From Chromohalobacter nigrandesensis (lineage in GTDB: Bacteria; Pseudomonadota; Gammaproteobacteria; Pseudomonadales; Halomonadaceae): 64,000 bases of DNA. A model generated the notes under the pieces. It saw only the letters and a list, made by a program, of their open reading frames with translations, had not been told where the DNA came from and ran no database searches. Every line of letters starts with the position of its first letter. Position 1 is the stretch's first letter. Both the position numbers and the translations under genes were made by a program. The stretch is taken from the NCBI RefSeq assembly GCF_023061285.1, contig NZ_JAKGAM010000004.1, positions 186,001-250,000 on the forward strand, read 5' to 3'. Positions 5,001 to 20,646 of this stretch are shown here, in pieces.

Positions 5001-5028
5001 ATTTAACATAATATATATTATGCGAACT
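5001..5028. other. dif: dif site / left prophage junction (complete XerD and XerC arms)
   Basis: Read on the minus strand this is an 11-base XerC arm (AGTTCGCATAA), a 6-base centre (TATATA) and an 11-base XerD arm (TTATGTTAAAT). As I recall it, Escherichia coli dif is GGTGCGCATAA-TGTATA-TTATGTTAAAT, so the XerD arm is identical and the XerC arm differs at three positions. The XerD arm lies on the chromosome side and the XerC arm on the prophage side. The same 16 bases (5012-5027) recur at 15523-15538. Confidence 0.88.
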
Positions 5029-5192
5029 CAGGGCCTTATCTTTGTCACTCAATGGCGTCCCACCTTTGATGTTTATTTTGGTGATTTTCGTCATCTCTTT
5101 GTTACGTCTTTTCCGCGCGTCTTTACGTTTTCCCGCCGCTGGGCATTGCGCCCGGCGTTTATAACGTTTTTATACGCGGGAAACCTATCAAT
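5029..5192. promoter_or_regulatory. Prophage left-end non-coding region
   Basis: 164 bases between the dif-type junction and the first prophage gene hold no convincing ORF. The region is T-rich on the plus strand, contains near-repeats (TTACGTCTTTTCCGC at 5102 and a similar copy about 20 bases on) and an imperfect GC hairpin at 5134-5157 followed by a short T run. It probably contains the promoter of the 5193 regulator. In the circular phage form it would lie directly after the repressor gene at 15179-15517. Confidence 0.4.
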
Positions 5193-5558
5193 ATGAAAAA
5201 TCAATCTAAGATGATCGACCTCGATACCATGTTCGGCGCGGTGTCGGTGTCCGTCGATGAGGCCGTTCGCATCCTGGGCGTGCATCCCAAAACCGCCGAG
5301 CGTTGGGCGCGCGGTGCGCAGACGATCAGCCGCGAGCGCGCGGCGCTGCTGGCGATCCTGAGCGGTCAGGTGGTACCCATGCCAGAATGGCACGGGTTTA
5401 GGTTTGAGGTGCGACGCGGGCCGACGCCGCGTTACCGGCCTTATGCGGTCCTCATCGACCCGTGGGGACGCGAATGGGGACCGGCGTCGTTCGCGCCGGA
5501 TATCCAGCCGCGCCAGCGGCGTGCGGCGCGGGCATGGTGGCGGCGTTCGTCAGAATAA
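5193..5558 (+). CDS. Small HTH phage regulator (DUF3653-like)
   Basis: A 121-residue protein with an N-terminal helix-turn-helix (residues about 17-45: VDEAVRILGVHPKTAERWAR) followed by a compact region with PMPEWHGFRF, a layout seen in small DNA-binding proteins of filamentous and related phages. The C-terminus is arginine-rich. The start codon has only a weak GGGA-type ribosome site about 12 bases upstream. It runs opposite to the structural genes and overlaps the end of the 45-residue ORF by 9 bases. Likely a transcription factor of the prophage; the target is unknown. Confidence 0.7.
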   Translation: MKNQSKMIDLDTMFGAVSVSVDEAVRILGVHPKTAERWARGAQTISRERAALLAILSGQVVPMPEWHGFRFEVRRGPTPRYRPYAVLIDPWGREWGPASFAPDIQPRQRRAARAWWRRSSE

Positions 5559-5687
5559 CCGCCCTTGGGTGCCGCGCTTGGCGCGGCGCCCTTTGCCTTT
5601 GGTGTTGACGATCTTGCCGCCCTTGCGAAACTTGAACCCCTTTTTGAGCCGTCCGCAGGCGTTGAGCGCGTCTTTCTTGCTAGCCAT
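5550..5687 (-). CDS. Very small basic protein, possible virion DNA-binding peptide
   Basis: Frame read by hand: 45 residues beginning MASKKDALNACGRLKKG and ending GRRAKRGTQGRLF. About one third are Lys/Arg. A ribosome site AGGAA lies 7 bases before the ATG, and the start overlaps the stop of the upstream ORF by 8 bases, matching the tight packing of the operon. PM2-type virions contain very small basic membrane or DNA-associated proteins, so a structural or genome-condensing role is plausible. The function is not proven. Confidence 0.6.
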   Translation of the reverse strand: MASKKDALNACGRLKKGFKFRKGGKIVNTKGKGRRAKRGTQGRLF

Positions 5688-5826
5688 TTTTCATTTCCTG
5701 TCGTAACTCCTGGGCGATTTCGAGGCGACTGACGCGCGTCGTGAGCCGCATCATATACAGCCCCATGGCGAGAATGCCGAGATTGCCCCCGGCATTGATG
5801 GCCTCGATCAGTGTGCCGTCCGTCAT
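5680..5826 (-). CDS. Small single-helix membrane protein of the prophage
   Basis: Frame read by hand: 48 residues with a hydrophobic helix (about residues 10-27, with NAGGNLGILAMGLYMM) followed by a charged amphipathic helix (VSRLEIAQELRQEM). It overlaps the ORF upstream by 4 bases (ATGA) and the ORF downstream by 8. Tailless phages with an internal membrane encode many such peptides. It could be a virion membrane protein or a holin-like lysis protein. Confidence 0.6.
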   Translation of the reverse strand: MTDGTLIEAINAGGNLGILAMGLYMMRLTTRVSRLEIAQELRQEMKNG

Positions 5827-5945
5827 ACAAACGCCCCGATCAGTGAGGTGAACACGTCAGGCGGCAGGAATTGCCCGGTAAAGATGCCCAGGATCCCCGA
5901 AAGCGCAATTCCCGCGCCCTTTTTCTGGCTGTCGTTGAGTTTCAT
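5823..5945 (-). CDS. Small hydrophobic protein of the prophage
   Basis: Frame read by hand: 40 residues, MKLNDSQKKGAGIALSGILG then a mostly hydrophobic second half ending LIGAFV. It has one likely membrane helix (about residues 11-25). A GGAGG lies about 12 bases upstream, and the start overlaps the preceding stop as ATGA. Likely a virion membrane peptide, by position and composition; I see no sequence-based assignment. Confidence 0.55.
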   Translation of the reverse strand: MKLNDSQKKGAGIALSGILGIFTGQFLPPDVFTSLIGAFV

Positions 5946-6223
5946 AGCGTCGAGAATCCTCCGTTATCAAAGCGATTTTGTACTTCGTCCGGCGTCATGC
6001 TGGGGCCGTCATACTCCCAGCTATCGCCCCAGGTGCTTAGCTTGATGGTGCCTTCGGTCAGGTCGCCGAATGAGGTCTTCCACCATGCCTTGTTGGCCGT
6101 TTCGGTGACGCTGGGCATGCCCCGCACCCCTTTATAGAGGCGGTATCCTACATAGGCCGCGCCGCCGATCATGGCGAGCTGGCCTAGGGTGCTGGCGTTC
6201 TTGAGTGTGCTTGCGATGCTCAT
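5942..6223 (-). CDS. Prophage membrane-associated protein, 93 residues
   Basis: The N-terminal third holds a hydrophobic segment (about residues 13-30, GQLAMIGGAAYVGYRLYKG). The remainder is polar with several aromatic residues (KAWWKTSFGD, GDSWEYDG). Start and stop each overlap the neighbours by 4 bases, typical of the cluster. It sits directly downstream of the lysozyme-like protein gene. A virion membrane role is inferred from context; I recognise no family. Confidence 0.6.
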   Translation of the reverse strand: MSIASTLKNASTLGQLAMIGGAAYVGYRLYKGVRGMPSVTETANKAWWKTSFGDLTEGTIKLSTWGDSWEYDGPSMTPDEVQNRFDNGGFSTL

Positions 6224-6852
6224 GCCATTTTGACCCCGCGTTTAATCAGTGCCGTGGCGTAGGGCTGCTGACCGTTTTCGTGCTCGATGATCGCGGCGAT
6301 CAGCGGGACGCGCACGGCGGGCTTGGTAATGTCGAGCGGCGCATCGGGCGACGCGCCGACCTCCTCGGCGACGTGTTCGATATAGCTACTGGTGTCGTTC
6401 TCGGTGCTGGGTGCCCAGCGATTGATGACGCCGCGCACGGTGTTGATGCCGTGTTTGCGGTAGTAGGTATCGAGCACGCGGGCGAGCGCGCGGATGCCGT
6501 AGACCGGCTCCACGAAGCGCAGAAACCGGCCATCGTTGCGCGGGCTGTCGAGTCCCTGCCAGTTGGTGCCGGTGTCCTCGATATTGCCGGGATTGTTGTT
6601 GCGGATGCCGCGTGGCTCCCATGTCGTCACGTCAAAACCTCCTAACCAGTCGAGTACCCCGCCGCTCTCGGTGTCGGTGTCCGGCTGGGGTGTGGTGTCA
6701 TAATCGGGCGCCCAGGGAATGCCGGATTCCCCGAGCCCCCCGGTGGTGGTGCCGCCGCTGGTGTTGTTGCTGGACGGCAGGGGCTGGCGTGGCGTAACGA
6801 GATACCAGCCCACGCCGCCGAGCATCAGCACCGCCGCGAGGCGTCGCATCAC
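6220..6852 (-). CDS. Membrane-anchored lysozyme-like protein ('structural protein P5' type)
   Basis: 210 residues: an N-terminal membrane anchor (about 4-20), a Gly/Thr/Asp-rich linker (25-78), then a conserved phage domain with PRGIRNNNPGNI, RFVEPVYGIRALARVL, KHGINTVRGVINRWAPS and EHENG motifs. This domain is annotated in many bacterial genomes as structural protein P5 or a lytic-transglycosylase-like virion protein. It probably opens the peptidoglycan during genome entry or at exit. Anchoring in the virion membrane fits a tailless, internal-membrane phage. The exact catalytic chemistry is not certain. Confidence 0.75.
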   Translation of the reverse strand: MMRRLAAVLMLGGVGWYLVTPRQPLPSSNNTSGGTTTGGLGESGIPWAPDYDTTPQPDTDTESGGVLDWLGGFDVTTWEPRGIRNNNPGNIEDTGTNWQGLDSPRNDGRFLRFVEPVYGIRALARVLDTYYRKHGINTVRGVINRWAPSTENDTSSYIEHVAEEVGASPDAPLDITKPAVRVPLIAAIIEHENGQQPYATALIKRGVKMA

Positions 6853-7145
6853 GCGGCCCCCGTGGCGTCCGTGGTGGTGTCGTCTGCCGCCGCTGCCTCG
6901 GCGTCGAGCCGGGCCTGATGCTGGGCGTCGGCGTCGGCGAAAATGGCGTCGATGGCGTCGCTCGTTTCGTCGTCGATCAGGAGTTCGCGCCCGGCGAACG
7001 GCTGGCGCTCGAGCCAGCGGTAATCGCCCTCGACTCCGACGAAGGCCACATCGTCGGGGAGTGCGCTGGTATCCACGGGATAACTGTTCATCAGGTCGAC
7101 GAAGGCCAGCCCGGCCTCTGCGATGATTTGGCGTGTCGGTGTCAT
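6849..7145 (-). CDS. Prophage protein of unknown function, 98 residues
   Basis: An acidic, alanine/aspartate-rich protein without a membrane segment. Around residues 25-65 it has a more ordered part (VAFVGVEGDYRWLERQPFAG), and the C-terminus (about 68-98) is low-complexity Ala/Asp/Thr. AGGGGG precedes the ATG by 4 bases. It lies between the spike-like gene and the lysozyme-like gene. The position resembles that of small assembly or chaperone proteins beside phage fibre genes, but that is only a guess. Confidence 0.55.
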   Translation of the reverse strand: MTPTRQIIAEAGLAFVDLMNSYPVDTSALPDDVAFVGVEGDYRWLERQPFAGRELLIDDETSDAIDAIFADADAQHQARLDAEAAAADDTTTDATGAA

Positions 7146-7153
7146 AGTGCCCC

Positions 7154-7837
7154 CTATTTGAGTTTCATCACCCAGCGCCCGGCGATGCTGGGTTGCATGT
7201 TGTTGTGTGCGGCGTTGCCGCCGCGCTGGCCGATGCTGATGGTGTGCGAGTGATTGCCGTTGCCGTTGATGTTCAGGCTGTGCGAGTGGTTGCCGTTGCT
7301 GTTGATATTCAGGCTGTGCGAGTGGTTGCCGGCGTATGAGGTGTTTTGTGACTTTTCTTCAACGTCGCCAGTCGACCCGCCCCCTAAATCATGTTCGTAG
7401 CCAACATTATTTAGGACTTTCCCCATAGAGTGCCGGTGATTGCCGGTGGTGCTGGTGTTCCCCGAGTGCCCGTGGTAGCCCTTGGTATTGGTGCTGCCTG
7501 AGTGCCCGTGATGGCCGTTGGTGCTGGCGCTCGCACCGTGGTCGTGGCTGGGCATTTCGTCGGTGCCCAGCGTGTGGGTATCGGCCCCACCGCCCTGACC
7601 GGGCGTCTGCGCCCAGGTGTCGCCGACACGCCCGGCCCCCTCGTCGGTGCCCACCGGGGTGCGCCCCCGGTAGTCGGGCAGCGTGTCGCCATACATGGTT
7701 TTGACCTGGGTCGAGGCCCAGGCCGGCATGTCCGAGCCATCGAGCAAGACGGTGTTTTTCGGGAGCTGGGCGAGTGGTAGATGCAGTGGCACGCCCACGG
7801 GGAGCCCGCCGCCACCTGCGGGAATGAGCCGTGCCAT
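7154..7837 (-). CDS. Receptor-binding spike with seven HxH motifs (tail-collar-like)
   Basis: 227 residues. Residues about 25-75 resemble the phage tail-collar/short-fibre fold (LLDGSDMPAWAS, LPDYRGRTPVGTDEG). Residues 98-198 carry seven HxH triplets at 98, 110, 122, 134 and then 172, 184, 196, each set spaced exactly 12 residues. The C-terminus is NMQPSIAGRWVMKLK. In the T4 long-tail-fibre tip gp37, HxH motifs from three chains coordinate a line of iron ions, so this is probably a trimeric, metal-stapled needle at the virion vertex. It follows a probable penton gene, with an exact junction (ATG 7837 against stop 7837). Confidence 0.78.
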   Translation of the reverse strand: MARLIPAGGGGLPVGVPLHLPLAQLPKNTVLLDGSDMPAWASTQVKTMYGDTLPDYRGRTPVGTDEGAGRVGDTWAQTPGQGGGADTHTLGTDEMPSHDHGASASTNGHHGHSGSTNTKGYHGHSGNTSTTGNHRHSMGKVLNNVGYEHDLGGGSTGDVEEKSQNTSYAGNHSHSLNINSNGNHSHSLNINGNGNHSHTISIGQRGGNAAHNNMQPSIAGRWVMKLK

Positions 7838-8355
7838 TAGATGACCTCCGCGACGTGCAACACGTCGCCACTGTCGCCGATGATGTCGATCGCGCCGGTG
7901 ATGTCGAGTTCGAAGGTATCGCCCGGCTGGATCGGCAGCCCCGCAATCGCCAGGTTATCGCCGTTGTCGGCGCTGGCCCGCATAACAAGCTGACGGCGTG
8001 CGGGGTTGTCGGGGATCGTCTCGCCTCCGGCGATGTCGCCCACGGCGCGCAGCGTGGCGGCGGGTGCCGGGGCCACGGCCCCGCTCATGCGGGCCGACTC
8101 GAATTCCCCGAGGCCGACGATCACCACCACGCGGCGCGCAATCTCGCTCTCATTGCGAAAACGGATGGTGGTAAACGCCCGGATGCGTGCGCCCTCGCCC
8201 TCGCGCACGGTGAGCGAGTCCCCGGCGTCGGTGATGGCGCGCACGGTGGCCCCATCGGCGTCTAGCACCCGGAAGTAATCCCCGTTCATCTGGACGGGCA
8301 CCTCGCTACCGGGCTCGATGCTCAAGACGTAATCGCGTAATTGACCGGTTGCCAT
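7837..8355 (-). CDS. Beta-rich virion protein, candidate penton base
   Basis: 172 residues, almost entirely beta-prone, with no membrane segment. It can be read as two similar halves (one around YFRVLDADGATVRAITDAGD, the other around NLAIAGLPIQPGDTFELDI), each of a size that could form one small jelly roll. It lies between a membrane protein and the spike gene and has a GAGGA ribosome site. A vertex (penton) role is inferred from gene order and composition; structure prediction would decide. Confidence 0.55.
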   Translation of the reverse strand: MATGQLRDYVLSIEPGSEVPVQMNGDYFRVLDADGATVRAITDAGDSLTVREGEGARIRAFTTIRFRNESEIARRVVVIVGLGEFESARMSGAVAPAPAATLRAVGDIAGGETIPDNPARRQLVMRASADNGDNLAIAGLPIQPGDTFELDITGAIDIIGDSGDVLHVAEVI

Positions 8356-8358
8356 GTC

Positions 8359-8943
8359 TTATCCTCGTTTCGATGCCCAGGCGATGCCGACCAGCGCCAC
8401 GGATGCGAAGGCGGCAACATAAATGACGGTTTTGGTCGCGTCGCCCGCATTGCCGACCTGCTCGCGCTGGGTATAGTCGCTGACAAAATCCATGGCGCGC
8501 TGGGTGCCGTTTTCCCCGGCCTGCGCGACCTCGCGGGCGAGCTGTTGCATGCCGGTTAGGGCGTCACCTGCCAATCCCAGGGAGTCGCTATTGACGCCAT
8601 CGGCAAAGTCGAGCGAGTCGCGATTGACGCTATCGGCCATATCGAGCGAGTCGACGTTGATGCCCTCGGCAAATTCGAGCGAGTCGCGGTTAATGTCGCG
8701 GCTCGTCTGAGCGATCTCGTCGGCCAGGTCGAAGGCGCCATCGCTCATCTCGGCGGCATTGCCGGTGATTTCCTTGGTGCCCGATTCCAGGGCCTTGGCG
8801 ATGTTGTCGAGCGTCACCGCGTCGGCGCGCTGGACCAGGACGCGGTTGCCCTTGCCGTAGACGTTCGCGCCCTCGGCCTGCTGGCTGACGTTCGTGGTGT
8901 TATAGGTTTTATCGCTGCTGCTGCTACTGCTACCGCCGCCCAT
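8359..8943 (-). CDS. Membrane protein with 11-residue coiled-coil repeats
   Basis: 194 residues. A Gly/Ser-rich start (GGGSSSSSS) precedes a polar N-domain. Residues 84-127 contain four 11-residue repeats of the form (I/V)N-x-DSL-x-(F/M/L)A-(E/D/G)-x, and residues about 172-190 form a membrane helix followed by SKRG. Eleven-residue periods suit a right-handed coiled coil. Start 8943 is preferred to the longer reading because it overlaps the upstream stop (8930) and matches operon style. Possible roles are a membrane-anchored rod, a DNA-delivery tube or a spike stalk. Confidence 0.65.
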   Translation of the reverse strand: MGGGSSSSSSDKTYNTTNVSQQAEGANVYGKGNRVLVQRADAVTLDNIAKALESGTKEITGNAAEMSDGAFDLADEIAQTSRDINRDSLEFAEGINVDSLDMADSVNRDSLDFADGVNSDSLGLAGDALTGMQQLAREVAQAGENGTQRAMDFVSDYTQREQVGNAGDATKTVIYVAAFASVALVGIAWASKRG

Positions 8944-9268
8944 ATCGGTACACCCGTTCAGATTCGTGGAATCCCAGGCGGGACAACATGCGTCCCAGCG
9001 CCGGGCGCTTGGTATGGAACCGGACGGACCAGCCCCAACGGTCGGCGGTGTCACAGAGCGCGGCCACCTTGGCCGGAGCGTCCTCGCCCGCCCCGGCCAC
9101 GATCACCAGCTCGGGTGCCTGCGTGGCGTACTCTTCGAGGCGCACGACGATACGGGATCCATCGGGGTACGCGAGCAGCGTGGCGCGGCCCGCGTTCACC
9201 TCGTCGATGACAATATCGGCATCGTCGCCCATCGCCGGGGACAGGGTTTCGATGTCCTCGGCGGTCAT
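8930..9268 (-). CDS. Small GNAT-like protein of the prophage
   Basis: 112 residues. The C-terminal half (ADRWGWSVRF, then GRMLSRLGFHESERVYRYGR) looks like the last part of a GNAT acetyltransferase fold, where 'RLGF' precedes the final strand. The acetyl-CoA-binding loop is not evident, so it may not be an active acetyltransferase. Its start overlaps the upstream stop by 4 bases. A GNAT-like gene inside a virion-gene cluster is unusual; it could act on the host or on a virion protein. Confidence 0.5.
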   Translation of the reverse strand: MTAEDIETLSPAMGDDADIVIDEVNAGRATLLAYPDGSRIVVRLEEYATQAPELVIVAGAGEDAPAKVAALCDTADRWGWSVRFHTKRPALGRMLSRLGFHESERVYRYGRR

Positions 9269-9477
9269 TTCTTCCAGACCTTGAGGCCAACGAGCCCGAC
9301 CACGCCGATGATCGCGACCATCTTCCAGTCGATGCCGTTATCCTTGCGCACCCGTGAGCCGCTGGCGTAGAAGTCGCCAACGCTCAGGCCCAGCCCTTGC
9401 GTGTCGCCATAGTTCCCGGCGCTCGACGGCCCCGCGCTACCACCCGACCCGCTGAAGCTCATTGGAGGCATTGCCAT
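9265..9477 (-). CDS. C-terminally anchored small virion protein, 70 residues
   Basis: Gly/Ser-rich N-terminus (FSGSGGSAGPSSAG), then a hydrophobic helix close to the C-terminus (residues about 52-66, KMVAIIGVVGLVGLKVW) ending in two lysines. The ribosome site AGGGG is 8 bases before the ATG. This Gly-rich soluble part plus C-terminal anchor is repeated in the next gene upstream. It is probably embedded in the virion membrane. Confidence 0.6.
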   Translation of the reverse strand: MAMPPMSFSGSGGSAGPSSAGNYGDTQGLGLSVGDFYASGSRVRKDNGIDWKMVAIIGVVGLVGLKVWKK

Positions 9478-9489
9478 GTCGCGAGCCCC

Positions 9490-9870
9490 TTACTTGATGA
9501 GATAGAACGCGAGCAACACCACACCCCCGGCGATCAGCAATTGCCCGCCGCTCAGGTTGCCGGGTAGCCCCGCCATGGCGGCGGTGTTGGGCTGCTGCCG
9601 GTTGCCGCTGGGCGTCTGCGTCGTGGTGCGCTCATAAGCCTGTGAATCGCCGGTACTCTCGGCGATGCCCTTGGCCTTCTCGAAGTTGATCCAGGTGTTG
9701 AGGCCGTCGCCTAGCACGTCGTTGACGCCGCCGAAAATGCCCTTGGCCTGCTCGAAAAAACCGCCGTCACCGTAGTTGATGCCGTCGTTGCTGTAGTCGG
9801 TGGCCGTCTCGGAACTGAGAACGTCGCCGAATAGGCCCCCGCTCCCGCTGGTGTAATCTGTTAGCGCCAT
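9490..9870 (-). CDS. C-terminally anchored virion protein, 126 residues
   Basis: The N-terminal 35 residues are Gly/Ser/Asp-rich (TSGSGGLFGDVLSS), the middle is polar, and the last 17 residues are a membrane helix (LLIAGGVVLLAFYLIK). AAGGGGG lies 4 bases upstream of the ATG. It lies directly downstream of the major capsid gene with a 9-base gap, so it should be made in quantity. A virion membrane protein is the likely role; I recognise no family. Confidence 0.6.
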   Translation of the reverse strand: MALTDYTSGSGGLFGDVLSSETATDYSNDGINYGDGGFFEQAKGIFGGVNDVLGDGLNTWINFEKAKGIAESTGDSQAYERTTTQTPSGNRQQPNTAAMAGLPGNLSGGQLLIAGGVVLLAFYLIK

Positions 9871-9879
9871 GCGACCCCC

Positions 9880-10686
9880 TTAGATGCCGTTGTAGCCGTC
9901 CAAGTACTCGACCAGGACTGTGACCGCGCCCGGCGTGTCCAGGGTCAGGCGGAAACGCTGGTCCTGAATGTTTCGCGGGCTGGTGTCGATGGTCTGGCCC
10001 AGGTCGCCTTCCTGCAGCCAATCGACGGCCAGATACCCGCCCTGCGGCTTGCGCCCGGCTTCCTTCTGCATGTACTGCAATAGGCCTTTGTCGCCCTCCA
10101 CGATCTTGCGTGAATTCTGCTCGACCTCGACGCGGCTAATATCGTCGTCGGCCTTGAAGAAATGCACGGCGGCGATGCGCGGTCCCTTGGGAATGTTGTC
10201 GATCTCGAAGGTGCCGGATGTGGCGCTTGAGTAGACAAACCGCTTGAGCTTGTTCATCACACCCAGGGGCTTGGGGGATGACTGCACCGCGCGGGCGTCG
10301 ATGCTGGGGTTGGTCGCATCGGCGTGGATGTCGATTTCGAGCTGGAGCGTTTGCACTACGCCCTTGCCGTTGAGGCCCGTGCCGAGGCCGGTGACGCGCT
10401 GTTGTTCCAGGGCGTTCATTTCCGGGCGCACAAACCAGATCGTAACGAAGCCGGCTTCGTCGTGACGCCCGTAGTAGCTGTTGATGCTGGCGAGCTGCGC
10501 GGCGCTTTCGTACTCGATCACCGGCTTGCCGTCGATCAAGAGACGAATATCCTTCATCTGCTCACGGGTCACGCCGCTAGTGCGTAGCACCAGCTTTTCG
10601 TAGGTGCGGCCCAACGGCATGTTGAGCGTGGCGGTGCCGCCTGCGGTGACGTTGGCAAGCGAGGGCATGCGGACAATCTGACGCAT
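9880..10686 (-). CDS. Major capsid protein, PM2 P2-like double jelly roll
   Basis: 268 residues (PM2 P2 has 269). Landmarks shared with P2 as I recall it are RTYEKLVLRTSGVT (residues 27-40), a VRPEM motif (86-90), RIAAVHF in the middle, and a QEGDLGQ ... DQRFRLTLDT ... VEYLDGYN C-terminal series. The whole chain is beta-rich with no signal peptide or membrane helix, as expected for a double jelly-roll coat subunit that tiles an icosahedral shell over a membrane. A strong AGGAG ribosome site sits 8 bases before the start. This is the key gene for calling the element corticovirus-like. Confidence 0.82.
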   Translation of the reverse strand: MRQIVRMPSLANVTAGGTATLNMPLGRTYEKLVLRTSGVTREQMKDIRLLIDGKPVIEYESAAQLASINSYYGRHDEAGFVTIWFVRPEMNALEQQRVTGLGTGLNGKGVVQTLQLEIDIHADATNPSIDARAVQSSPKPLGVMNKLKRFVYSSATSGTFEIDNIPKGPRIAAVHFFKADDDISRVEVEQNSRKIVEGDKGLLQYMQKEAGRKPQGGYLAVDWLQEGDLGQTIDTSPRNIQDQRFRLTLDTPGAVTVLVEYLDGYNGI

Positions 10687-10710
10687 CGTGTTTTCTCCTA
10701 TCCTGTGGGG

Positions 10711-10863
10711 TTACTTGCCGCCGCTGACGATCTTCGCGGCGGTGTTCAGCCCCGCTTTTTTCATGCCGTAGACCGCAAGGCCGATCACCACGGCGCTTGT
10801 GAGAGTCGATACAACAATCGTCATATCCAGGTTGTCGGTGTACTTCTCGACGTAATCGCCCAT
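10711..10863 (-). CDS. Small virion membrane protein before the capsid gene
   Basis: 50 residues with one strong membrane helix (about 15-32, TIVVSTLTSAVVIGLAVYGM) and a short basic tail. Start 10863 is preferred over a longer frame because AGGAAACAG precedes it and the extension runs through a terminator hairpin. It is the first gene after that terminator and lies 24 bases before the capsid gene, so it leads the capsid block. PM2 also pairs its coat protein with abundant small membrane proteins. Confidence 0.65.
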   Translation of the reverse strand: MGDYVEKYTDNLDMTIVVSTLTSAVVIGLAVYGMKKAGLNTAAKIVSGGK

Positions 10864-10891
10864 GTCTGTTTCCTGCTGTTCGTTGATGACG

Positions 10892-10924
10892 AAAAAAGCC
10901 CCCGTGCCGGGTGGCAACGGGGGC
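10892..10924 (-). terminator. Intrinsic terminator/attenuator between ATPase and capsid genes
   Basis: On the minus strand a GC-rich hairpin with arms GCCCCCGT and ACGGGGGC, extended by inner GCC/GGC pairing (10898-10924), is followed by six T residues (10897-10892). It lies 33 bases after the ATPase stop and about 30 bases before the next start. No room is left for a full promoter downstream of it, so partial read-through may set the amount of capsid transcript. Confidence 0.8.
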
Positions 10925-10957
10925 AAGATCCAACAGCATTCGCTCAAAAGACCAGCG

Positions 10958-11614
10958 TCATTCGCTCAGTTCGGTCAAAATCCGGCGCTGTCCCTCGAAT
11001 GTGAGGCGGTGCCAGGTGATGTCAGGGCCGCGCTTGCACAGGTAGTGCAGGGGCTCGACGGCTGCCAGGCGCTGCTCGCTGACGGCGGCGAGGCGTGACA
11101 TGCGGGGAATGTCGGTGGCCTCCTGCCGTCCGATCCAATACTCGGCGGCTTGCGTGTAGACCGTTTTGCTAATTTCGGTCCCGCGCTGGCTCGCCATGGT
11201 TAGCCCGCCGTTGTATTTGCGCGCGCGGCGGATCAGCTCGCCGAATTTCGGCGTCGCTTTGCCCGCGCTGGGCGACACGTCGGCCAGTTCCTCGATCAAT
11301 ATCTCGGTCGGCGTTCGGCCATCGAGCGCGGTGAACACTAAGGCGCACCACCATTCCCACGTTTTGAGGTCGATGGCCCCGGCCCATAGCAGCCGGAACG
11401 GTCGCCCCGACGACACGCCCCGCGCCACGGCGCGGGCAAACTGGGCGCGGTTATCGAAATGGTGGCCGTCGTGGTCTTCGTCCGGGTCCCAGCCGATCAG
11501 GCGGATGCCCCGCGCCGGGATGACGGCGCGGATGAGCTGGCTTTTCCCGGCCCCGGTCGCCCCCAACACCAGCCGGTGCCGGTTGGGTAACGAGGTGTCG
11601 GGATTAAACGCCAT
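10958..11614 (-). CDS. Packaging ATPase, PM2 P9-like (FtsK/HerA class)
   Basis: 218 residues. Walker A is GATGAGKS (residues 18-25), Walker B is EILIEEL (104-110), and a conserved SQR (142-144) follows, which could be the sensor position. This compact A32/FtsK-HerA layout is typical of genome-packaging ATPases of tailless double-jelly-roll viruses. It has no membrane helix, which distinguishes it from filamentous-phage Zot proteins. Start 11614 (MAFNPDT) has AGGGGG upstream and overlaps the previous stop by 11 bases. Confidence 0.8.
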   Translation of the reverse strand: MAFNPDTSLPNRHRLVLGATGAGKSQLIRAVIPARGIRLIGWDPDEDHDGHHFDNRAQFARAVARGVSSGRPFRLLWAGAIDLKTWEWWCALVFTALDGRTPTEILIEELADVSPSAGKATPKFGELIRRARKYNGGLTMASQRGTEISKTVYTQAAEYWIGRQEATDIPRMSRLAAVSEQRLAAVEPLHYLCKRGPDITWHRLTFEGQRRILTELSE

Positions 11615-12077
11615 GCGCGGCCCCCTGGGCCTGCCCCGCGTCGTCCTCGGCCTCGCGTTCCTGGGCCTTGGCGGCATCCTCGGCGCGGCGCTGACGGTAC
11701 GCGCCGACCATCACGCCGCCGATCCAGAGCCCGGCGCTCAGGTAGTGCATGTATGGGCGCAGCCATTCGGGGATCTCGCCGGAAAAGTCCCGCGCGATGG
11801 GCATCATCACGTCTTCGCCCTGGGTGCGGCTCTCGCGGTCGAGGCTATGACCGGGATGGATGAGGCTCGCGGCCACCTCGACGCCCTGCACCGCCATTTT
11901 TGCGATGGCCTGGGCCTGTTGCTCCTGGGCCTCGGCGTCTTCCCACTCCCCGGCCTGGGCCTGCTCGGCGGCATCCTCGGCGCGGGCCTGCGCGGCCTCG
12001 TCGGTTTCGGCCTCGGCGGCGAGTTGTTCCAGGGCGTTAGCCGCGTCGTCTTGTTCGTGCGTTGCTTGCATGGTCAT
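11604..12077 (-). CDS. Acidic prophage protein with a short membrane segment
   Basis: 157 residues. The N-terminal 60 residues are rich in Ala, Glu, Asp and Gln and probably helical. A likely membrane or amphipathic segment occurs at about 112-128 (HYLSAGLWIGGVMVGAYRQRR). The C-terminus is again charged and Ala-rich. GGAG lies 8 bases before the chosen ATG (12077); a second ATG is two codons on. The gene overlaps the ATPase start. Function unknown; its place before the ATPase suggests assembly or packaging. Confidence 0.55.
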   Translation of the reverse strand: MTMQATHEQDDAANALEQLAAEAETDEAAQARAEDAAEQAQAGEWEDAEAQEQQAQAIAKMAVQGVEVAASLIHPGHSLDRESRTQGEDVMMPIARDFSGEIPEWLRPYMHYLSAGLWIGGVMVGAYRQRRAEDAAKAQEREAEDDAGQAQGAAHGV

Positions 12078-12096
12078 CGGTCGGTCTCCGGTCGGT

Positions 12097-12477
12097 TTAT
12101 CGGGTGGCGAGGAAGGCGCCCACGCCCAGCGCGCCGAGTAGCAACACGCCCACGCCCCGCGCGGGGCTCGGTCGCCCGCTCGGTTGCGGCTCGCTCGGCG
12201 TGTCGGTCTCGGGCTCGGGCTCGTTGGGGTCAAATTCGGCGGGCGTCGGTCGCTCGGTGTCGTCGGGCACGTTGGCCGGGCGGATGGGCTGCACCCCGGT
12301 CGCCCACTGCGTCTCACGCCATAGGCGCTTTTGAATGGTCGCGCCGGTCGGCTGGCTCAGGCCGCAATCTGTGCATTGCCAGTACAGGTGCCCGCCCCGG
12401 CGCTTGGATTGGCGCACCTCGGCCCCCTCGGTGCCGCATGTCGGGCACGTCACGGTGCCTAGCGTGGGATTACTCAT
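12097..12477 (-). CDS. Zinc-ribbon protein with C-terminal membrane anchor
   Basis: 126 residues. Two cysteine pairs, CPTC (about residue 11) and CTDC (about 35), form a zinc ribbon around a basic stretch (VRQSKRRGGHLYWQ). A long Pro/Glu/Thr-rich linker (70-105) leads to a C-terminal hydrophobic helix (GVGVLLLGALGVGAFLATR). It may tether DNA or a replication/packaging factor to the membrane, which would suit assembly of a membrane-containing phage. No family name is claimed. Confidence 0.6.
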   Translation of the reverse strand: MSNPTLGTVTCPTCGTEGAEVRQSKRRGGHLYWQCTDCGLSQPTGATIQKRLWRETQWATGVQPIRPANVPDDTERPTPAEFDPNEPEPETDTPSEPQPSGRPSPARGVGVLLLGALGVGAFLATR

Positions 12478-12649
12478 GGGGTGCGGCCTCCCGTGCCAGC
12501 TCGCGGCGCGTCAGCTCGTCGGCGATCTCGGCCATCATCAGCGCCGCCGCTTTGAATTGAGCGGCGGCGAGCATGGGCGATAGCCCCGCGACGGCGTCGC
12601 ATTTCGCGCGTAGCTGGGCGCGTTTGTATTCCAGTTCCCGGTTGGTCAT
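12470..12649 (-). CDS. Small helical prophage protein, 59 residues
   Basis: Frame read by hand: starts MTNRELEYKRAQLRAKCDAV and ends in a charged helix (DELTRRELAREAAPHE). It is probably all-helical. It overlaps the replication gene stop by 4 bases and the zinc-ribbon start by 8. The middle has a mildly hydrophobic Ala-rich run that could be amphipathic. Its place beside the replication gene suggests a replication accessory role; unproven. Confidence 0.6.
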   Translation of the reverse strand: MTNRELEYKRAQLRAKCDAVAGLSPMLAAAQFKAAALMMAEIADELTRRELAREAAPHE

Positions 12650-14496
12650 GCGGTCAGTACCTCGGCGGCTTCATCTAGTGTGATTTTCCCGTTGGCGAGC
12701 CATTGGCGGACAATGTCCTCGCCCTCTCGTATTGATTGCAGACGGTGGCGCTCGGCCTGGGCGGCGGCGATGCGCTGGGCTGATTCGTGGCGGTATTGCT
12801 CGGCGTCGTGCGCGATCTGCAAACGCAGTCGGCGGACGTTTTCGGGATCGGGGGCCGGATTCATGCGGCGGAATGATTCAGTTACGTGCCATTCCCAATC
12901 ATTGAGCGGGTCGCGATGCGGTGCCGCGTCGGGGGGCGTACAGTTATTGACACCAGTCCAAGCGGCGGCGGAGCCGCCGACACCCAACTTCTCAAAATCA
13001 AACCCGGCGTCGCTCGGCTTGCGCTCGACGGTCCAGCGATAAAGCCGGGTCAGGTATTCGGCGGTGCCGACCTGACTACTGACGGCCACGCCGTAGGTCG
13101 CCGGTACCGGATCGCCATAGCGCCCGGTATCGTCCAGCTTCTCGAAGCGCCACGGGCGCGCTGGTTGATCGTCACGTTTGGTCATGGGACCGCCCATTAG
13201 GCGCAGGAACTCGGCCCATTGGTTGCCCAGGCACGCGCGGCGTAGCTCGCCCAGGATCGCCGCCGCCTCGGGCTCGGGCCGCGTCGCTTGCTCCCATGCC
13301 TCTACGTCGGCGTCGGTTGTCAGGCGGCGCAGCTCGCGCCACACGCCCACCGATGGCAGGCCGTAGAACTGAAACTGACGAATCCCCCAGGTTGCGGCCC
13401 ATGCCTCGATTCGCGGCGCACTGCTGGTCAGGTCATGGCCGTAATGGTCGAGATGATCGCCCTCGACCTCGCCCCGGACGTGCTGCTTGCCGTTGATGTT
13501 CTTGCAAATGTATTTCGCGACGTAGCCCGCCGCGCTGCCCCGCGCCGGGTCGATGCGCACCGGCTTGAAGCGCTTTTGCTCGCGATCCTTCGCCTTGGCG
13601 TCACTGTCGCCGGGACGCCGGTCTATTTCGTGCGGCGAGTCGGCCAGCGCGTAGCGACGAAGAATGGCGGTGATGGCCGGTTCGTCGGCGGGCTCGCACC
13701 ACAGCAACAGGTGCCAGTGCGGGCACCCGTCGTGATGCGGCTCGACGACGCGGATGCCGTAGAAGCCCAGGCCGTCGCGCCCGAATTTCGCGCGGGCCTT
13801 GTTCCATAGTTTGGTTAGGTAGGCTTGCGCCTCGCGGGGGGTGCTGCCGTCGTAATGCCGATTGACACGCGCGGTGCCCTTGATGACGGCATGAAACCGG
13901 CTCGGGCATGTGAGGGTGTAGAACATCCCCACATGCCCCAGGCGATTAGCCTCGTCCTCGGTGTCTGCGAGCCGCAACATCAGTTCGGCGCGGCGATGAT
14001 CGGGATTCGCTAGCCCCAGTTCGGCTAGCTCGGCCAGGGTGTACTCCTGCGCGTGCTGATTCGTGGCGACCAGTCCGGCGAGCAATTCCCGGTTGCGGTG
14101 CTGCTGGGCGCGGCGTTGGCTCAATCCCTGATGACTGACGTAGATACCGGCGCGGTCATGCACGCGCCCTAGCACGCGTTCGCGCTGTTCGAGGCGGCGA
14201 GCATTGAGGCGGCGCAACTGGCGACGCCACCACAGCGGGCACGCCATGCGTGCGAGCCCGCCCCGGTGGCCGTAACCGGTGGGCGCGTCTAGCTGATGCC
14301 GCTCGACGCGCCGCGCGGCACGCTGATAGGCGTACACATCGTCCCCCAGGCTCGCGGCTTCCGTCGCCACGGCGCGTGCCTGTGCGCTGGCGTGGCTGGT
14401 TAGGGCGTCGTCGTCGGTGGTGCAGTACCAGGGGCCGCAGCGGCGCAGCGAGTCGGCGAGCACCTGGCGATCAATGGCGGCGGCGTGGGTGGTCAT
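12646..14496 (-). CDS. Rolling-circle replication initiator (HUH, phage GPA type)
   Basis: 616 residues. The HUH metal site is in CPHWHLLLW (His 260 and 262). The two catalytic tyrosines are in GYVAKYICKN (Tyr 325 and Tyr 329, three residues between), as in phiX174 protein A and P2 protein A. An upstream motif, MFYTLTCPSRFHAV (about 190-205), fits conserved motif I. Such enzymes nick one origin strand and stay joined to the 5' end. PM2 also initiates replication with a protein of this superfamily. Start 14496 overlaps the previous stop as ATGA. Confidence 0.88.
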   Translation of the reverse strand: MTTHAAAIDRQVLADSLRRCGPWYCTTDDDALTSHASAQARAVATEAASLGDDVYAYQRAARRVERHQLDAPTGYGHRGGLARMACPLWWRRQLRRLNARRLEQRERVLGRVHDRAGIYVSHQGLSQRRAQQHRNRELLAGLVATNQHAQEYTLAELAELGLANPDHRRAELMLRLADTEDEANRLGHVGMFYTLTCPSRFHAVIKGTARVNRHYDGSTPREAQAYLTKLWNKARAKFGRDGLGFYGIRVVEPHHDGCPHWHLLLWCEPADEPAITAILRRYALADSPHEIDRRPGDSDAKAKDREQKRFKPVRIDPARGSAAGYVAKYICKNINGKQHVRGEVEGDHLDHYGHDLTSSAPRIEAWAATWGIRQFQFYGLPSVGVWRELRRLTTDADVEAWEQATRPEPEAAAILGELRRACLGNQWAEFLRLMGGPMTKRDDQPARPWRFEKLDDTGRYGDPVPATYGVAVSSQVGTAEYLTRLYRWTVERKPSDAGFDFEKLGVGGSAAAWTGVNNCTPPDAAPHRDPLNDWEWHVTESFRRMNPAPDPENVRRLRLQIAHDAEQYRHESAQRIAAAQAERHRLQSIREGEDIVRQWLANGKITLDEAAEVLTA

Positions 14497-14675
14497 GCGG
14501 TGCCCCGCTCGATCTCGTCGGCGAGCGATTCCAGCCGCTCGGCCATTCTGATGAGCCGCCCAGCCTCCCCGCCATCGTCGTAATATACGTCTGCTGCCGT
14601 TCGCCGACTCCCCCGCGCCGAGGCCCGTAGACGTTCCACGGTGGCGTCGATCTCGTAATCGGCGATGGTCTTCAT
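14493..14675 (-). CDS. Small prophage protein, related to its upstream neighbour
   Basis: 60 residues, helical, with TVERLRASAR near the start and RLESLADEIE near the end. The next upstream protein has TVDQLRARAD and RLSQLADEIE in the same order, so the two look like a duplicated pair. It overlaps the replication gene and its upstream neighbour by 4 bases each. Function unknown; it belongs to the early/replication block. Confidence 0.6.
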   Translation of the reverse strand: MKTIADYEIDATVERLRASARGSRRTAADVYYDDGGEAGRLIRMAERLESLADEIERGTA

Positions 14676-14980
14676 GCCTCACCCCCGATGATGCCGTTTG
14701 CGCTGGCGTCGGCTTCGATCTCGTCGGCGAGCTGGCTCAGTCGCGTCGATAACTCGGCGTACCAGTAGCCCAGGCCGGTACCGGCGTAGACGTGCAGCGC
14801 ATCGCGGAAGAAATCGGCGCGGGCGCGCAGTTGGTCCACGGTGTCGCGGGTGCGGCTGTTGGTTATGCGGTCACGCCCGGCAGCGTCGTGAAGTGCGCTG
14901 CGTAGGCGATCAAAGGCAGGGGGAGTATCAATCCCAGGACTGGAAACGGCTTCAACATTTAGGCCCTGTGCGTTTTGCAT
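14672..14980 (-). CDS. First gene of the prophage replication operon, unknown function
   Basis: 102 residues from the ATG at 14980, which has GGAG six bases upstream; an in-frame ATG at 14992 overlaps that site and is less likely. The C-terminal half resembles the next gene (TVDQLRARAD, RLSQLADEIE). It has no membrane segment. It faces the repressor gene across a palindrome-rich control region, so it should be among the first genes expressed on induction. Confidence 0.6.
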   Translation of the reverse strand: MQNAQGLNVEAVSSPGIDTPPAFDRLRSALHDAAGRDRITNSRTRDTVDQLRARADFFRDALHVYAGTGLGYWYAELSTRLSQLADEIEADASANGIIGGEA

Positions 14981-14992
14981 AGCGTTCTCCAT

Positions 14993-15178
14993 CGGCTTAT
15001 CGCTGACGGGAAACGCTGGGGAGCTACCCCAGCGCCGGGCCGTTGGCCCTGTTCAGCGATGGAACGGAGAAACCATAGTCTGAGCCCTCTTTACTAATCA
15101 ACAGGCGCTGTATCATCGCCCTCCTGTTGAATAGCAGTCTATGATGCATGGGAACGCAACATTCCCAGGGAATTGACT
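14993..15178. promoter_or_regulatory. Divergent control region with palindromes; possible single-strand origin
   Basis: Between the replication operon and the repressor gene. A cloverleaf-like element spans 15001-15058: outer stem CGCTGA/TCAGCG, inner hairpin CGCTGGGG/CCCCAGCG with 5-base loop (15014-15034), and inner hairpin GGGCC/GGCCC (15037-15049). Two possible operators follow: CAACAGG (15099) paired with CCTGTTG (15123), and TGGGAA-N7-TTCCCA (15149-15167), the latter abutting the repressor ribosome site. The cloverleaf could be a leader RNA or a lagging-strand origin for rolling-circle replication. Confidence 0.6.
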
Positions 15179-15517
15179 ATGACCACTATGGAACTGCTCG
15201 AACGCCTGAAAACCGCCAATGACGGGGCCTCGGACTATCGGATAGCCCAGATTTTGGCCGTCAAGCCCCAAACGGTCTCTCACTGGAAAAACGGACGCGG
15301 AACCATGGGGGATGAAGTGGGAATTCGGGCCGCTGAGGCGTTGGGATTGGACCCGGTAAAAGTGATTGTTGACCTGCATATTGAGCGCGAGGAAGGGAAC
15401 CCGACGTTCTCGGTTTGGAAGGCGCTCGGGAAGCGATTGGAGATGGCCGCACTCCCCGCCGTGGCGGGCTTCGTGGGTTATTTAGCAAGTGCCGGTTTGC
15501 AGCATCCGCTAATATGA
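15179..15517 (+). CDS. Phage repressor-like HTH protein (DUF3693/Cro-like)
   Basis: 112 residues. Residues about 3-55 form a Cro/C1-type helix-turn-helix (LLERLKTANDGASDYRIAQI, LAVKPQTVSHWKNGRGTM). A linker (VKVIVDLHIERE) leads to a hydrophobic C-terminus that could touch the membrane (LPAVAGFVGYLASAGL). ATG 15179 has AGGG 8 bases upstream; an in-frame TTG at 15173 lies too close. It diverges from the replication operon, and a palindrome covers its ribosome site. This suggests the lysogeny switch. Confidence 0.78.
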   Translation: MTTMELLERLKTANDGASDYRIAQILAVKPQTVSHWKNGRGTMGDEVGIRAAEALGLDPVKVIVDLHIEREEGNPTFSVWKALGKRLEMAALPAVAGFVGYLASAGLQHPLI

Positions 15518-15539
15518 TTCCTTATATATTATGCGAACC
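15512..15539. other. Right prophage junction: XerC arm intact, XerD arm degenerate
   Basis: Read on the minus strand it shows XerC arm GGTTCGCATAA (15539-15529), centre TATATA (15528-15523), then AGGAATCATAT where the XerD arm should be; that arm matches the left-hand XerD arm at only about 4 of 11 positions. The 16 bases 15523-15538 repeat the left junction exactly. The XerC arm on the chromosome side together with the XerD arm at 5001-5011 rebuilds a canonical host dif. Confidence 0.82.
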
Positions 15540-15695: not shown

Positions 15696-16091
15696 TTATT
15701 CGTCGAGCGGCGCGTAGGATCCGTCTTCACGATGCACTTCACGCCCGGTCAAGGCGGGATTGAATGTGCATACCACGGTCATGCCTTTTTCCTTGCCACG
15801 CAGCAAGTGCTCATCGTGTTGATCGAGTAGATACATATCGCCGGCTTTGATGGGATGAATCTTGCCATCGGCCAGCGTCTCGACTTCACCTTCACCTTCG
15901 TAGCAAAACACGGCTTCAAAGTGATGCTTGTAGTGAATGTGAGTCTCGGTGCCCGGATGAATGCGGGTAATGTTGAACGAGAAACCGACGTTGTCGTCGG
16001 CCAGCACCAAGCGCGTGCTATCCCAGTTGCCGTTGTCGGCTTCGACGAAGCGCTCGGTCTTGCGACACTCTTCCAGGTTACGAACGATCAT
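15696..16091 (-). CDS. ectC: L-ectoine synthase EctC
   Basis: 131 residues. EctC is a cupin-fold, metal-dependent enzyme that closes N-gamma-acetyl-diaminobutyrate into the compatible solute ectoine. The cupin motifs [20 protein letters not shown] and a later [13 protein letters not shown] are intact. Start 16091 ([15 protein letters not shown]) matches the known family start and has GGAGG upstream; an in-frame TTG at 16100 lies too close to that site. It is the last gene of ectABC and is followed by a strong terminator. The gap after ectB is 115 bases. Confidence 0.97.
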
Positions 16092-16206
16092 GTAGCGCAA
16101 TCCTCCATGGTGCTCAATAAAGGGCCCGCAATCTCGCGGGCCGCATCCTCAGTCCACTGTAACGCATGTGACGATAACAACTTTAGTGGACTAACGAATA
16201 ATACGC

Positions 16207-18077
<1,871 letters not shown>

Positions 18078-18109
18078 ATCCATTTTCGCTAATGGCGAAT
18101 GTGTTCGCA

Positions 18110-18138
18110 ATAATAACAGCGGCTTATGTATTGATCAA
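18110..18138 (-). promoter_or_regulatory. Sigma-70-like promoter of ectABC
   Basis: On the minus strand: -35 TTGATC (18138-18133), 17-base spacer, -10 TATTAT (18115-18110). The predicted transcript start is about 25 bases before the ectA start. The region upstream is AT-rich. Ectoine operons of related species have several osmotically controlled promoters; only this one is clear by eye. Confidence 0.65.
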
Positions 18139-18317
18139 ATGACTGATTATCGTCATGTCGCTATCACATAAAAATACATTATAGACTGATGGGCGACTAT
18201 GGAATGCGTCACTACCCTGACGTTTATGTAACCACGACTGCTCTTAGTCTAGTCAATCATGATTGATTCGTATGCATGCGTTGCGTAGAGAGATCCCTTT
18301 GTCGAATAGCAACGCAA

Positions 18318-18339
18318 ACGGGCCACCGATGTGGCCCGT
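18318..18339 (-). terminator. Hairpin after the glutathione reductase gene
   Basis: Nine-base stem ACGGGCCAC/GTGGCCCGT with a 4-base loop, followed on the minus strand by a short T-rich tail. It lies 27 bases after the gor stop and probably ends that transcript before the ectABC promoter region. Confidence 0.65.
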
Positions 18340-18365
18340 CTGCTATCCGAAACTGCATCATATCG

Positions 18366-19730
18366 CTAGCGACGTGACAAGGAGCGCATCGTGACAAACT
18401 CCTCGGCACTGGTGGGGTGAATGCCCACCGTGGCGTCAAAGTCGGTCTTGGTCAGGCGTGCGCGTACGGCGATGGCGATCCCCTGGATGAGTTCACCAGC
18501 ATCGTCACCCACCATGTGGGCGCCGACTACACGGTCGGTCATGTCGTCGACGACCAGCTTCATCAGGCAACGTTCCTGACTACCCGAGAGTGTGTGCTTC
18601 ATGGGACGGAAGTCGGTGCGATAGATGCGCACCCCACCCTCGCACTGTTCGCGAGCTTCTTCTTCGCTGAGGCCGACGGTACCGATATTGGGATGACAGA
18701 ACACTGCCGTGGCGATGTCCTGGTAATCCAGCGGGCGCGGTGGCGTATCGCCATAATGGTGCTGGACGAGGTGCATGGCCTCGGCAAGCGCCACGGGCGT
18801 GAGCTCGGGGCCCCCGGTCACGTCGCCCAGGGCGAGGATCGACGGCTCCGAGGTCTGATAACGCTCGTCGACTTTCACGGTGCCATTGGGATTGAGCGCG
18901 ATATCCAGCTCGTCGAGCCCCAGGCCGGTAAGGTTCGGGCGGCGTCCGGTGGCCGCCAGCACGACATCCACTTCCAGCGTTTCGCCGTTGGTCAGACTGA
19001 CGCGATAGACATCGCCGACCGGCTCGATACGCTCGATGGTGGTTTCGAAGTGTAGGTTGACGCCCTTCTTCTGCATCTCGTCGCGGGTGAACTCACGCAC
19101 TTCACGGTCGAAGCCGCGCAGGAACAACTCGCCGCGATAGACCAGGTGCGCGTCGCTGCCGAGCCCATTGAAGATACTGGCGAACTCGACCGCGATATAA
19201 CCACCGCCAAGCACCAGGAAGCGCTCGGGAAAGGTCTCCAGGTCGAAGACGCGATTGGAGTCCACGGCGTGTTCCGCACCTTCGATATCGGGAATCCACG
19301 GCCAACCGCCGGTCGCTACCAGGATCTTCTCGGCGGAGACCGTTTCGCCGTTGATCTCGATGCTGTGCGGGCTGGTGATGCGGGCGCGACCATTGATCAA
19401 CGTGACGTCGGCGCCTTCGAGCAAACGCCCGTAGATACCGTTGAGGCGCTTGATCTCCTCAATCTTGTTGTCGCGCAACGTCGCCCAGTCAAAGCGTGGC
19501 GCCTCGGGCAGCGTCCAACCGAAGCCGGCGCTATCCTCGAAGGCATCATGGAAATGTGCCGCATAGGAATACAGTTTCTTGGGCACACACCCGACATTCA
19601 CACAGGTGCCGCCCAGATAGCGGTCCTCGGCGATGGCCACGCGTGCACCTGTGGCGGCTGCCGTGCGTGCGGCGCGTACGCCACCGGAGCCCGCGCCGAT
19701 GACAAATAGGTCGTAGTCGTACTGAGCCAC
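18366..19730 (-). CDS. gor: Glutathione-disulfide reductase
   Basis: 454 residues. This FAD/NADPH enzyme reduces glutathione disulfide in the cytoplasm. It has the FAD-binding [20 protein letters not shown], the redox pair in [13 protein letters not shown] (Cys 43, Cys 48), the NADPH-site [17 protein letters not shown] with an arginine soon after ([12 protein letters not shown]) that favours NADPH, and the C-terminal catalytic histidine in [10 protein letters not shown]. The length is normal for the family. It is divergent from carbonic anhydrase, transcribed alone, and has a hairpin terminator. Confidence 0.94.
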
Positions 19731-19859
19731 GTCGTTCTCCTGACTTTTCGATGGTGAAGATGATAACAGTCCGGGGAACGCTCAGGGAGGGGCCTGATTG
19801 ACGCTTGCTAGCTGAGAAGGTAAAAGTTGCTTGAATACCCCCTGCATGAAGAGAATTAC

Positions 19860-20498: not shown

Positions 20499-20646
20499 TA
20501 TCGAGCACGCGTTGGAAGCTCTCAGGACGGTGTTATTCATCTGACGAATGGCGACCATCAAGATTTCGATTGTCGTCTTCCTACAAAGCTCTTTATGTTG
20601 AAGCTGACGATTCTCGTCGCATAACAATACACAATAGGGCTTCAAC

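Follow-up and report, generated by a model that had tools for sequence, protein, structure and literature searches.

How can a tailless phage in which no recombinase is found come to lie exactly within the dif site of its host? This question is raised by a 64,000-nucleotide stretch of DNA from Chromohalobacter nigrandesensis (contig NZ_JAKGAM010000004.1 of assembly GCF_023061285.1, positions 186,001 to 250,000, forward strand), which as a whole is called the window here and in which two dif-like sites enclose a 10.5-kb prophage whose capsid gene is of the PM2 type (double jelly roll). It is likely, at a probability of roughly 70%, that this element is a temperate, corticovirus-like prophage of the PM2 kind, inserted when the host recombinases XerC and XerD recombined a dif-like attP with the host dif in a site-specific reaction. 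What can be read directly are both junctions, the empty dif of relatives, the presence of xerC and xerD in the host, the lack of any detected phage recombinase, and a conserved module made up of a repressor gene, attP and a gene resembling that of the Xer activator XafT.

On the minus strand, positions 5001-5028 read AGTTCGCATAA TATATA TTATGTTAAAT, a complete dif. With respect to the E. coli dif, the XerD arm is identical, and there are 2 mismatches in the XerC arm and 1 in the centre. Positions 15512-15539, also on the minus strand, read GGTTCGCATAA TATATA AGGAATCATAT, in which the XerD arm is degenerate (7 of 11 bases mismatched). By site scan, the former is the regenerated full dif at the junction near the XafT-like gene, composed of the host XerD arm and the phage XerC arm, and the latter is the second junction, composed of the host XerC arm, the centre and the degenerate phage XerD arm. 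Joining the outer arms gives GGTTCGCATAA TATATA TTATGTTAAAT, and joining the inner arms gives AGTTCGCATAA TATATA AGGAATCATAT. An earlier note on this DNA had described a complete dif and a half-degenerate one at these positions, with outer arms that rebuild dif and inner arms that give attP, and the letters bear it out on each point. Between attP and attB, the mismatches number 0/9 in the XerC arm, 0/6 in the centre and 7/11 in the XerD arm, and the bases common to both junctions are exactly the XerC arm plus the centre. In the host's own genome (3,636,986 bases in 50 contigs), 5001-5028 is the sole site at up to 3 mismatches, so that no second perfect dif is present there, and a reversed control pattern gives 0 sites; among unrelated sites in the window, even the best departs from the pattern at 7 of the 22 arm bases. 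Immediately to the right of dif is a set of ectoine genes, ectC, ectB and ectA (15696-18110).

The capsid gene is absent from all nine same-genus relatives searched, and the uninterrupted dif that the earlier note proposed to look for in prophage-free relatives was found in each of the nine, none of which lacks dif at the locus. On a wider scale, dif occurs at up to 2 mismatches in 106 of 146 genomes (the host's own included), these nine among them. A single 4.0-kb alignment of 87-96% identity spans the joined flanks in seven of the nine relatives; in the remaining two, both sides are present in pieces (L033) or the right side and dif only are present (L032). The 27 matched bases of dif are identical in all nine, the outermost base of the XerC arm being variable, and two of the relatives (G003 and G005) have an additional 2-mismatch site elsewhere with a different centre. 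The host XerD scores over the curated cut-off, and the host XerC slightly under it (325.6 bits vs 335.15). Dif-like borders at the host dif, an empty dif in relatives, no recombinase of its own detected, and a host with both xerC and xerD are found together, features expected of integrative mobile elements exploiting Xer (IMEXs). The view that the locus also marks the replication terminus is supported by dif itself and by the single-contig relative G006. There, with dif at 59,966, the skew, sampled in 20 stretches of 20 kb, flips its sign once from the 1-20 kb to the 180-200 kb stretch, around dif, and once more at about 1.8 Mb; the cumulative skew of the window has its maximum at about 21 kb, 5-6 kb to the right of attR, and is too weak to fix the switch at exactly 5000.

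Among the 22 predicted prophage proteins, no integrase, resolvase or transposase match over the Pfam cut-off was found, and an integrase hidden Markov model (HMM) had no match in window positions 1-25000; the earlier reading that no integrase lies in the prophage is thus upheld by both scans. The product of a gene at 12097-12477 (minus strand), a small zinc-ribbon protein (phrog_20333, E 4.1e-10), has sub-threshold zinc-ribbon matches, some of them to families named after transposases or an integrase; it lacks a catalytic domain and is not taken for a recombinase.

The earlier note had overlooked a gene beside dif (5193-5558, plus strand), whose product contains a helix-turn-helix (HTH) and a DUF3653-like region and is proposed here as an XerD activator. 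The NCBIfam family NF040522 is named 'VC1465 family Xer recombination activation factor', and by this name we take it to be the XafT family. It is the best match for 11 of 14 candidate proteins scanned (56.0 bits for L113, 47.5 for phage NO16, 46.4 for PG21, 36.5 for L022, 31.2 for PM2, 26.6 for L108, 24.2 for L023, 22.8 for L093, 21.7 for L021, 19.2 for the window and 17.1 for L096), and the L038, L095 and L099 proteins have no match. Because the score of the window protein is weak, it was tied to the family through homologues: hhalign of the three halomonad proteins against the seven others gave 97.1% and E 6e-11 over 78 columns, which span the HTH and the W-G-F / P-x-G region. In addition, the Pfam DUF3653 cut-off is passed by NO16, PG21, L022 and L023 and narrowly missed by PM2. 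Judged from these profile comparisons, the gene at 5193-5558 is a putative distant relative of the XafT/VC1465 family. Two single families were rejected as detectors, NF040522 with matches in 12 of 14 control genomes and PF12375 with matches in 4 of 25 genomes at E 0.1, neither halomonad copy among them; the L093 protein searched against phages gave 5 weak matches at 47% coverage. The XafT-like genes of NO16 (L117, 3558-3989) and PG21 (L116, 1-417) are annotated as S-adenosylhomocysteine hydrolase, which their DUF3653 and NF040522 matches do not support. A 3.9-kb Pseudoalteromonas plasmid (L132, NZ_CP118498.1), in which no clear dif-like site was found, carries at 1809-2309 a DUF3653 gene with 45% identity to PM2 ORF (open reading frame) a over 118 residues, and at L038 (9651-10387), in a genome with no capsid match, a dif-like site lies about 180 bases from a relative of the window XafT-like protein.

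Places with a PM2-type capsid gene were collected by PF18628 search in the order (390 genomes, 22 with a match, 25 places) and the class (369 genomes, 4 with a match including the host's own, 3 new places), and by an alignment scan (A4) of genome contigs (10 named loci, one a duplicate), giving a survey total of 37; left out were G071, which has a weak capsid match and an integrase ORF cut at the stretch edge, and L122, which is the L021 place. ATPase scans of viral contigs returned 3 and 0 loci, and the PM2 capsid protein as a query against genome contigs returned no match. Sixteen of the 37 places sit between two dif-like sites, fifteen by site scan and the sixteenth, in Vibrio sp. CK2-1 (L127), completed by eye, its right site being the PG21 sequence with an 8-bp centre. 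The L021 sequence, whose genome falls in the family of the window (most probably Halomonadaceae), is that of Halomonas sp. NO4. Besides this Vibrio, the named hosts are Halomonas sp. NO4, Billgrantia bachuensis, Hydrogenovibrio sp. SC-1, Photobacterium salinisoli, Shewanella subflava, S. carassii and Pseudoalteromonas lipolytica. Another 14 places have a tyrosine integrase instead, of which 13 are distinct because one genome holds L103 and L104 as near-identical copies; four of the 14 are assigned by the integrase HMM, and the other integrase scan refers to integrases among the matches listed. L108 shows one junction only, L110 is an uninterrupted contig, and five places are unclassed, namely L101, L107, L114 and L124 (short or edge-cut contigs) and L098 (a 20-kb stretch with neither signal). 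In the 11.5-kb contig L110, the XafT-like gene, a full dif-like site and the repressor gene are contiguous (6990-8035), as expected of an unintegrated copy; a terminal overlap of at least 16 bases was looked for in this contig, and none was found.

The dif-type elements share one layout, in which one gene adjoins the regenerated dif and runs antisense to the structural genes, the far end being occupied by a repressor-like HTH gene. The XafT-like gene is present in 15 of the 16 dif-type elements vs 0 of the 14 integrase-type places (Fisher's test, p 2e-7, unchanged with 13 places, and only a guide since the sample consists of interrelated places and is not random), and the repressor gene is at the other end in 16/16. 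No integrase was found within any of the 16 elements, the matches in L099 and L129 and one in G028 falling outside them, and no dif-like site was found in the 14 integrase-type places. An XafT HMM was trained on ten proteins (those of the window, L021, L022, L023, L093, L108, L113, NO16, PM2 and PG21). Six of the 16 dif-type elements are in this training set; nine of the other ten match at E 6e-6 or better, four of these nine (L123, L126, L127 and L131) being close to a training member, and L125 is not detected, yet an HTH protein is present at that position. At E 0.1, the same HMM has no match in 13 integrase-type places (best 0.75), nor at E 0.01 in L130. Similarly, a repressor HMM built from seven elements matches the other nine of nine dif-type elements as well as L110, PG21, NO16, PM2 and Cr39582, and none of the five integrase-type loci given to it. 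In controls consisting mostly of host DNA, the best XafT HMM match is E 0.0066 in 467 kb, and there are 0 dif-like sites in 420 kb. In the sister lineages with the same capsid, a tyrosine integrase replaces the module, and these are not found at dif. A separate observation concerns L126 (Photobacterium salinisoli), where the region beyond dif (15762-20786) has a second XafT-like gene (15800-16348, E 2.8e-20) and genes that, by eye, resemble a second element in the opposite orientation.

Twelve of 15 elements have an attP with the XerC arm kept and the XerD arm degenerate, and the attP centre equals the attB centre in 15/15, partly by construction of the scan. The earlier note had taken CTXphi as its model; TLCphi is closer, with XerC arm and centre kept and XerD arm degenerate. 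A CTXphi-type integration through a folded single-stranded attP was rejected, as each element has one simple attP and the phage group is double-stranded. In TLCphi, the XerC site and centre are described as nearly those of dif and the XerD site as having very little similarity, the first exchange being made by XerD and the completion by XerC (PMC4246890), and XafT is reported to release a TLCphi-type element from FtsK dependence (PMC9765430). By analogy, the product of the dif-proximal gene of the prophage would activate XerD, so that strand exchange would start with XerD and without FtsK, and XerC would complete it. The reaction may be reversible, and the full dif rebuilt on the XafT side would allow chromosome dimer resolution to continue. 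The independence from FtsK is argued by the activator gene and not by the site, because the gonococcal island has the same site form and uses FtsK (PMC5357621).

Sequence and relatives together support the claim of a double-stranded, tailless phage that lies integrated at dif and has no integrase of its own. Several observations weigh against the fuller reading with XerC, XerD and an activator. All NF040522 scores (17-56 bits, the window protein at 19.2) are under the curated cut-off of 70; the family matches those 12 of 14 control genomes, and a genome-wide search with it omits the window place. In L095, L099 and L125, the gene is rightly placed and has either no NF040522 match or no HMM match. 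As to the sites, three of the 15 elements (L023, L113 and L131) have an attP of the mirror form, the L127/PG21 centre is unlike the others at 8 bp, and the degenerate-XerD form itself is shared by the FtsK-dependent gonococcal island (PMC5357621). The prophage is known here from the integrated copy alone, with no excised circle, and tailless prophages at dif have been reported to carry integrase genes (PMC11630473, ISME 2024).

Some of these points would fit an explanation in which Xer integration is real and the role of the HTH/DUF3653-like protein is confined to transcription regulation; XerD would then be activated by FtsK as for the gonococcal island, or XerC would act alone as for VGJphi. 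We regard this as rather unlikely. The weak family score of the window protein would agree with it, as would the FtsK dependence of an island with the same site form (PMC5357621), the description of PM2 P13-P16 as transcription factors (PMC1950889), and L127/PG21, which resembles XerC-only exchange and whose 8-bp centre would, by eye, fit an exchange of the VGJphi kind. However, the gene tracks dif integration (15/16) and is absent from integrase-type relatives (0/14) that also need regulation, and the best match of the group members is the Xer activator family.

A decayed, immobile remnant of an old Xer integration that has lost excision is quite improbable: the element is known in this genus as a single insertion, all nine same-genus relatives lacking the prophage, but the ORFs for capsid, ATPase, replication, XafT-like protein and repressor are all open, both sites are present, and the same layout recurs in a 73%-identical relative in another genus. 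Even less credible, to the point of being very improbable, is integration at dif by a prophage recombinase that has escaped recognition in place of the host Xer pair. In its favour, no family match was obtained for several small prophage ORFs, and tailless Vibrio prophages at dif with integrase genes are reported (PMC11630473); against this, none of the 16 dif-type elements has a tyrosine integrase inside, and the bases shared by the junctions are exactly the XerC arm plus the centre. In V. cyclitrophicus records, an integrase match is found in 0/4 chosen for the XafT-like gene and in 3/4 chosen for lacking it, the integration sites being unchecked. Based on the results presented above, recombination of a dif-like attP with dif by host XerC and XerD, with the dif-proximal gene as a candidate activator, is preferred.

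The remaining genes of the prophage agree with its placement in a known virus group. The major capsid protein of PM2 P2 type (double jelly roll; 9880-10686, minus strand) matches PF18628 at 116 bits (E 1.2e-33) and PF25513 at 110.8 bits (E 5e-32), the cut-offs being 25. An FtsK/HerA-type packaging ATPase (10958-11677, minus strand; phrog_2666, E 2.1e-22), whose start is uncertain, with homologues starting at about 11617, can be aligned with the PM2 and NO16 ATPases, and its Pfam FtsK and DUF87 matches are below cut-off. On the evidence of the capsid and the adjacent ATPase, the prophage is assigned to the PM2 group (Corticoviridae / Vinavirales), as a virus known here from its genes alone. Further minus-strand genes encode a GPA-type rolling-circle replication initiator (12646-14682; PF05840, E 6.2e-78), an endolysin or virion-associated lysozyme-like protein (6220-6852; phrog_873, E 1.2e-59), a conserved, probably structural protein, so considered by position (7837-8355; homologues in L021, at 64%, and L022), and a fibre- or spike-like protein (7154-7837; phrog_8763 and other tail-fibre families). 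The last has repeated G-N-H-S-H motifs and 33% identity to its L021 counterpart vs 72% for the capsid, a divergence that recalls the spike difference between PM2 and Cr39582 (PMC5968719). The HTH repressor-like gene at the end opposite the XafT-like gene (15173-15517, plus strand; phrog_638, E 4.1e-19; a member of the repressor HMM) has its stop codon within the degenerate XerD arm.

Another finding is that the module is also recognizable in PM2 itself. The best dif-like site in PM2 (AF155037) lies at 747-774, between ORFs a and c, and reads CGTGCTTACGA TTTATA TTATGTTAAAT, with a perfect XerD arm, and a site is likewise placed in Cr39582; in PM2, sites as good occur in 2 of 2000 dinucleotide resamplings of the gap and in 1 of 60 of the whole genome. 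ORF a (77-550) scores 31.2 bits with NF040522, and the repressor HMM recognizes ORF c (E 2.7e-10). We take ORFs a and c to be genes XV and XVI, which fits the published layout. According to Krupovic and Bamford (PMC1950889), the point of linearisation in PM2-like elements falls between genes XV and XVI, of which XV is dispensable; in the available text, XerC/D are mentioned for CTXphi, and PM2 is referred to as a strictly lytic phage. The source of Cr39582 was a lysogen, from which it was induced (PMC5968719). The attP of the P. lipolytica prophage (L131) is TACACTTACGA TTTATA TTATGTTAAAT, which agrees with the PM2 site at 24 of 28 bases, and the XafT-like protein of this prophage shares 76% identity with PM2 ORF a; a site with the TTTATA centre occurs once in each of the two Pseudoalteromonas genomes searched. 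The corresponding gap of NO16 also holds a site, equalled in 8 of 2000 resamplings, and the PG21 gap site is not significant with a 6-bp centre. We lean toward the wider view that many phages of the corticovirus kind are Xer parasites with their own activator, that repressor, attP and activator form a portable module replaced by a tyrosine integrase in sister lineages, and that PM2, with ORF a as activator and the a-c gap as attP, would either integrate at dif as a temperate phage or have descended recently from a phage that did.

The finding is one of an Xer-exploiting prophage of a known virus group, and noteworthy are the conservation of the repressor - attP - XafT-like module and the fact that PM2 carries it. 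No publication that connects PM2 or corticoviruses with XafT or with a dif-like attP was found, in a search thin on subscription journals. The abstract of the XafT paper is said to describe XafT-like proteins as widespread in gamma- and betaproteobacterial IMEXs, which may already cover part of this. Xer-mediated integration of a tailless phage, which the earlier note had offered as an inference, is supported here, but the idea is not new: XerCD integration was already proposed for NO16 (PMC9966536) and Jorvik (PMC10589892), and 'XafT' is not mentioned in the available text of either paper. For Vibrio, a few tailless prophages are described at dif, which regularly carry integrase genes and for which no mechanism is settled on (PMC11630473), and for other Vinavirales prophages the mechanisms are called unclear (PMC9502842). 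The module offers a concrete route by which integrase-less tailless phages may become prophages, a point left open in recent papers. If the proposal is true, XerD activation by mobile elements extends from a satellite phage to a capsid-bearing double-stranded-DNA virus lineage, a little-understood PM2 gene gains a likely role, and the question of PM2 lysogeny becomes directly testable.

Compared with known systems, the window prophage resembles Jorvik, a tailless membrane phage, in having no detected integrase and dif-like attP and attB, and Jorvik is unlike it in being integrated inside an operon (PMC10589892). TLCphi, compared by description, shares an attP with a dif-like XerC arm and centre and a degenerate XerD arm, and it has an Xer activator of its own (PMC4246890, PMC9765430), of which the XafT-like gene would be the counterpart here, but it has no virion genes and does not belong to this capsid lineage (PMC4246890), and its activator has only a distant likeness to the window XafT-like protein. 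PM2 and Cr39582 have capsids 29-31% identical to that of the window prophage and share its order of XafT-like gene, dif-like site and repressor, whereas their attP retains the XerD arm and not the XerC arm. NO16, for which Asemoviridae was proposed (PMC9966536) and which is placed in Corticoviridae in its record, is likewise a temperate tailless phage, of 10.6 kb, with a 40% identical capsid and a dif-like site between repressor and XafT-like gene, and it differs from the window prophage in its host group and in the letters of its attP.

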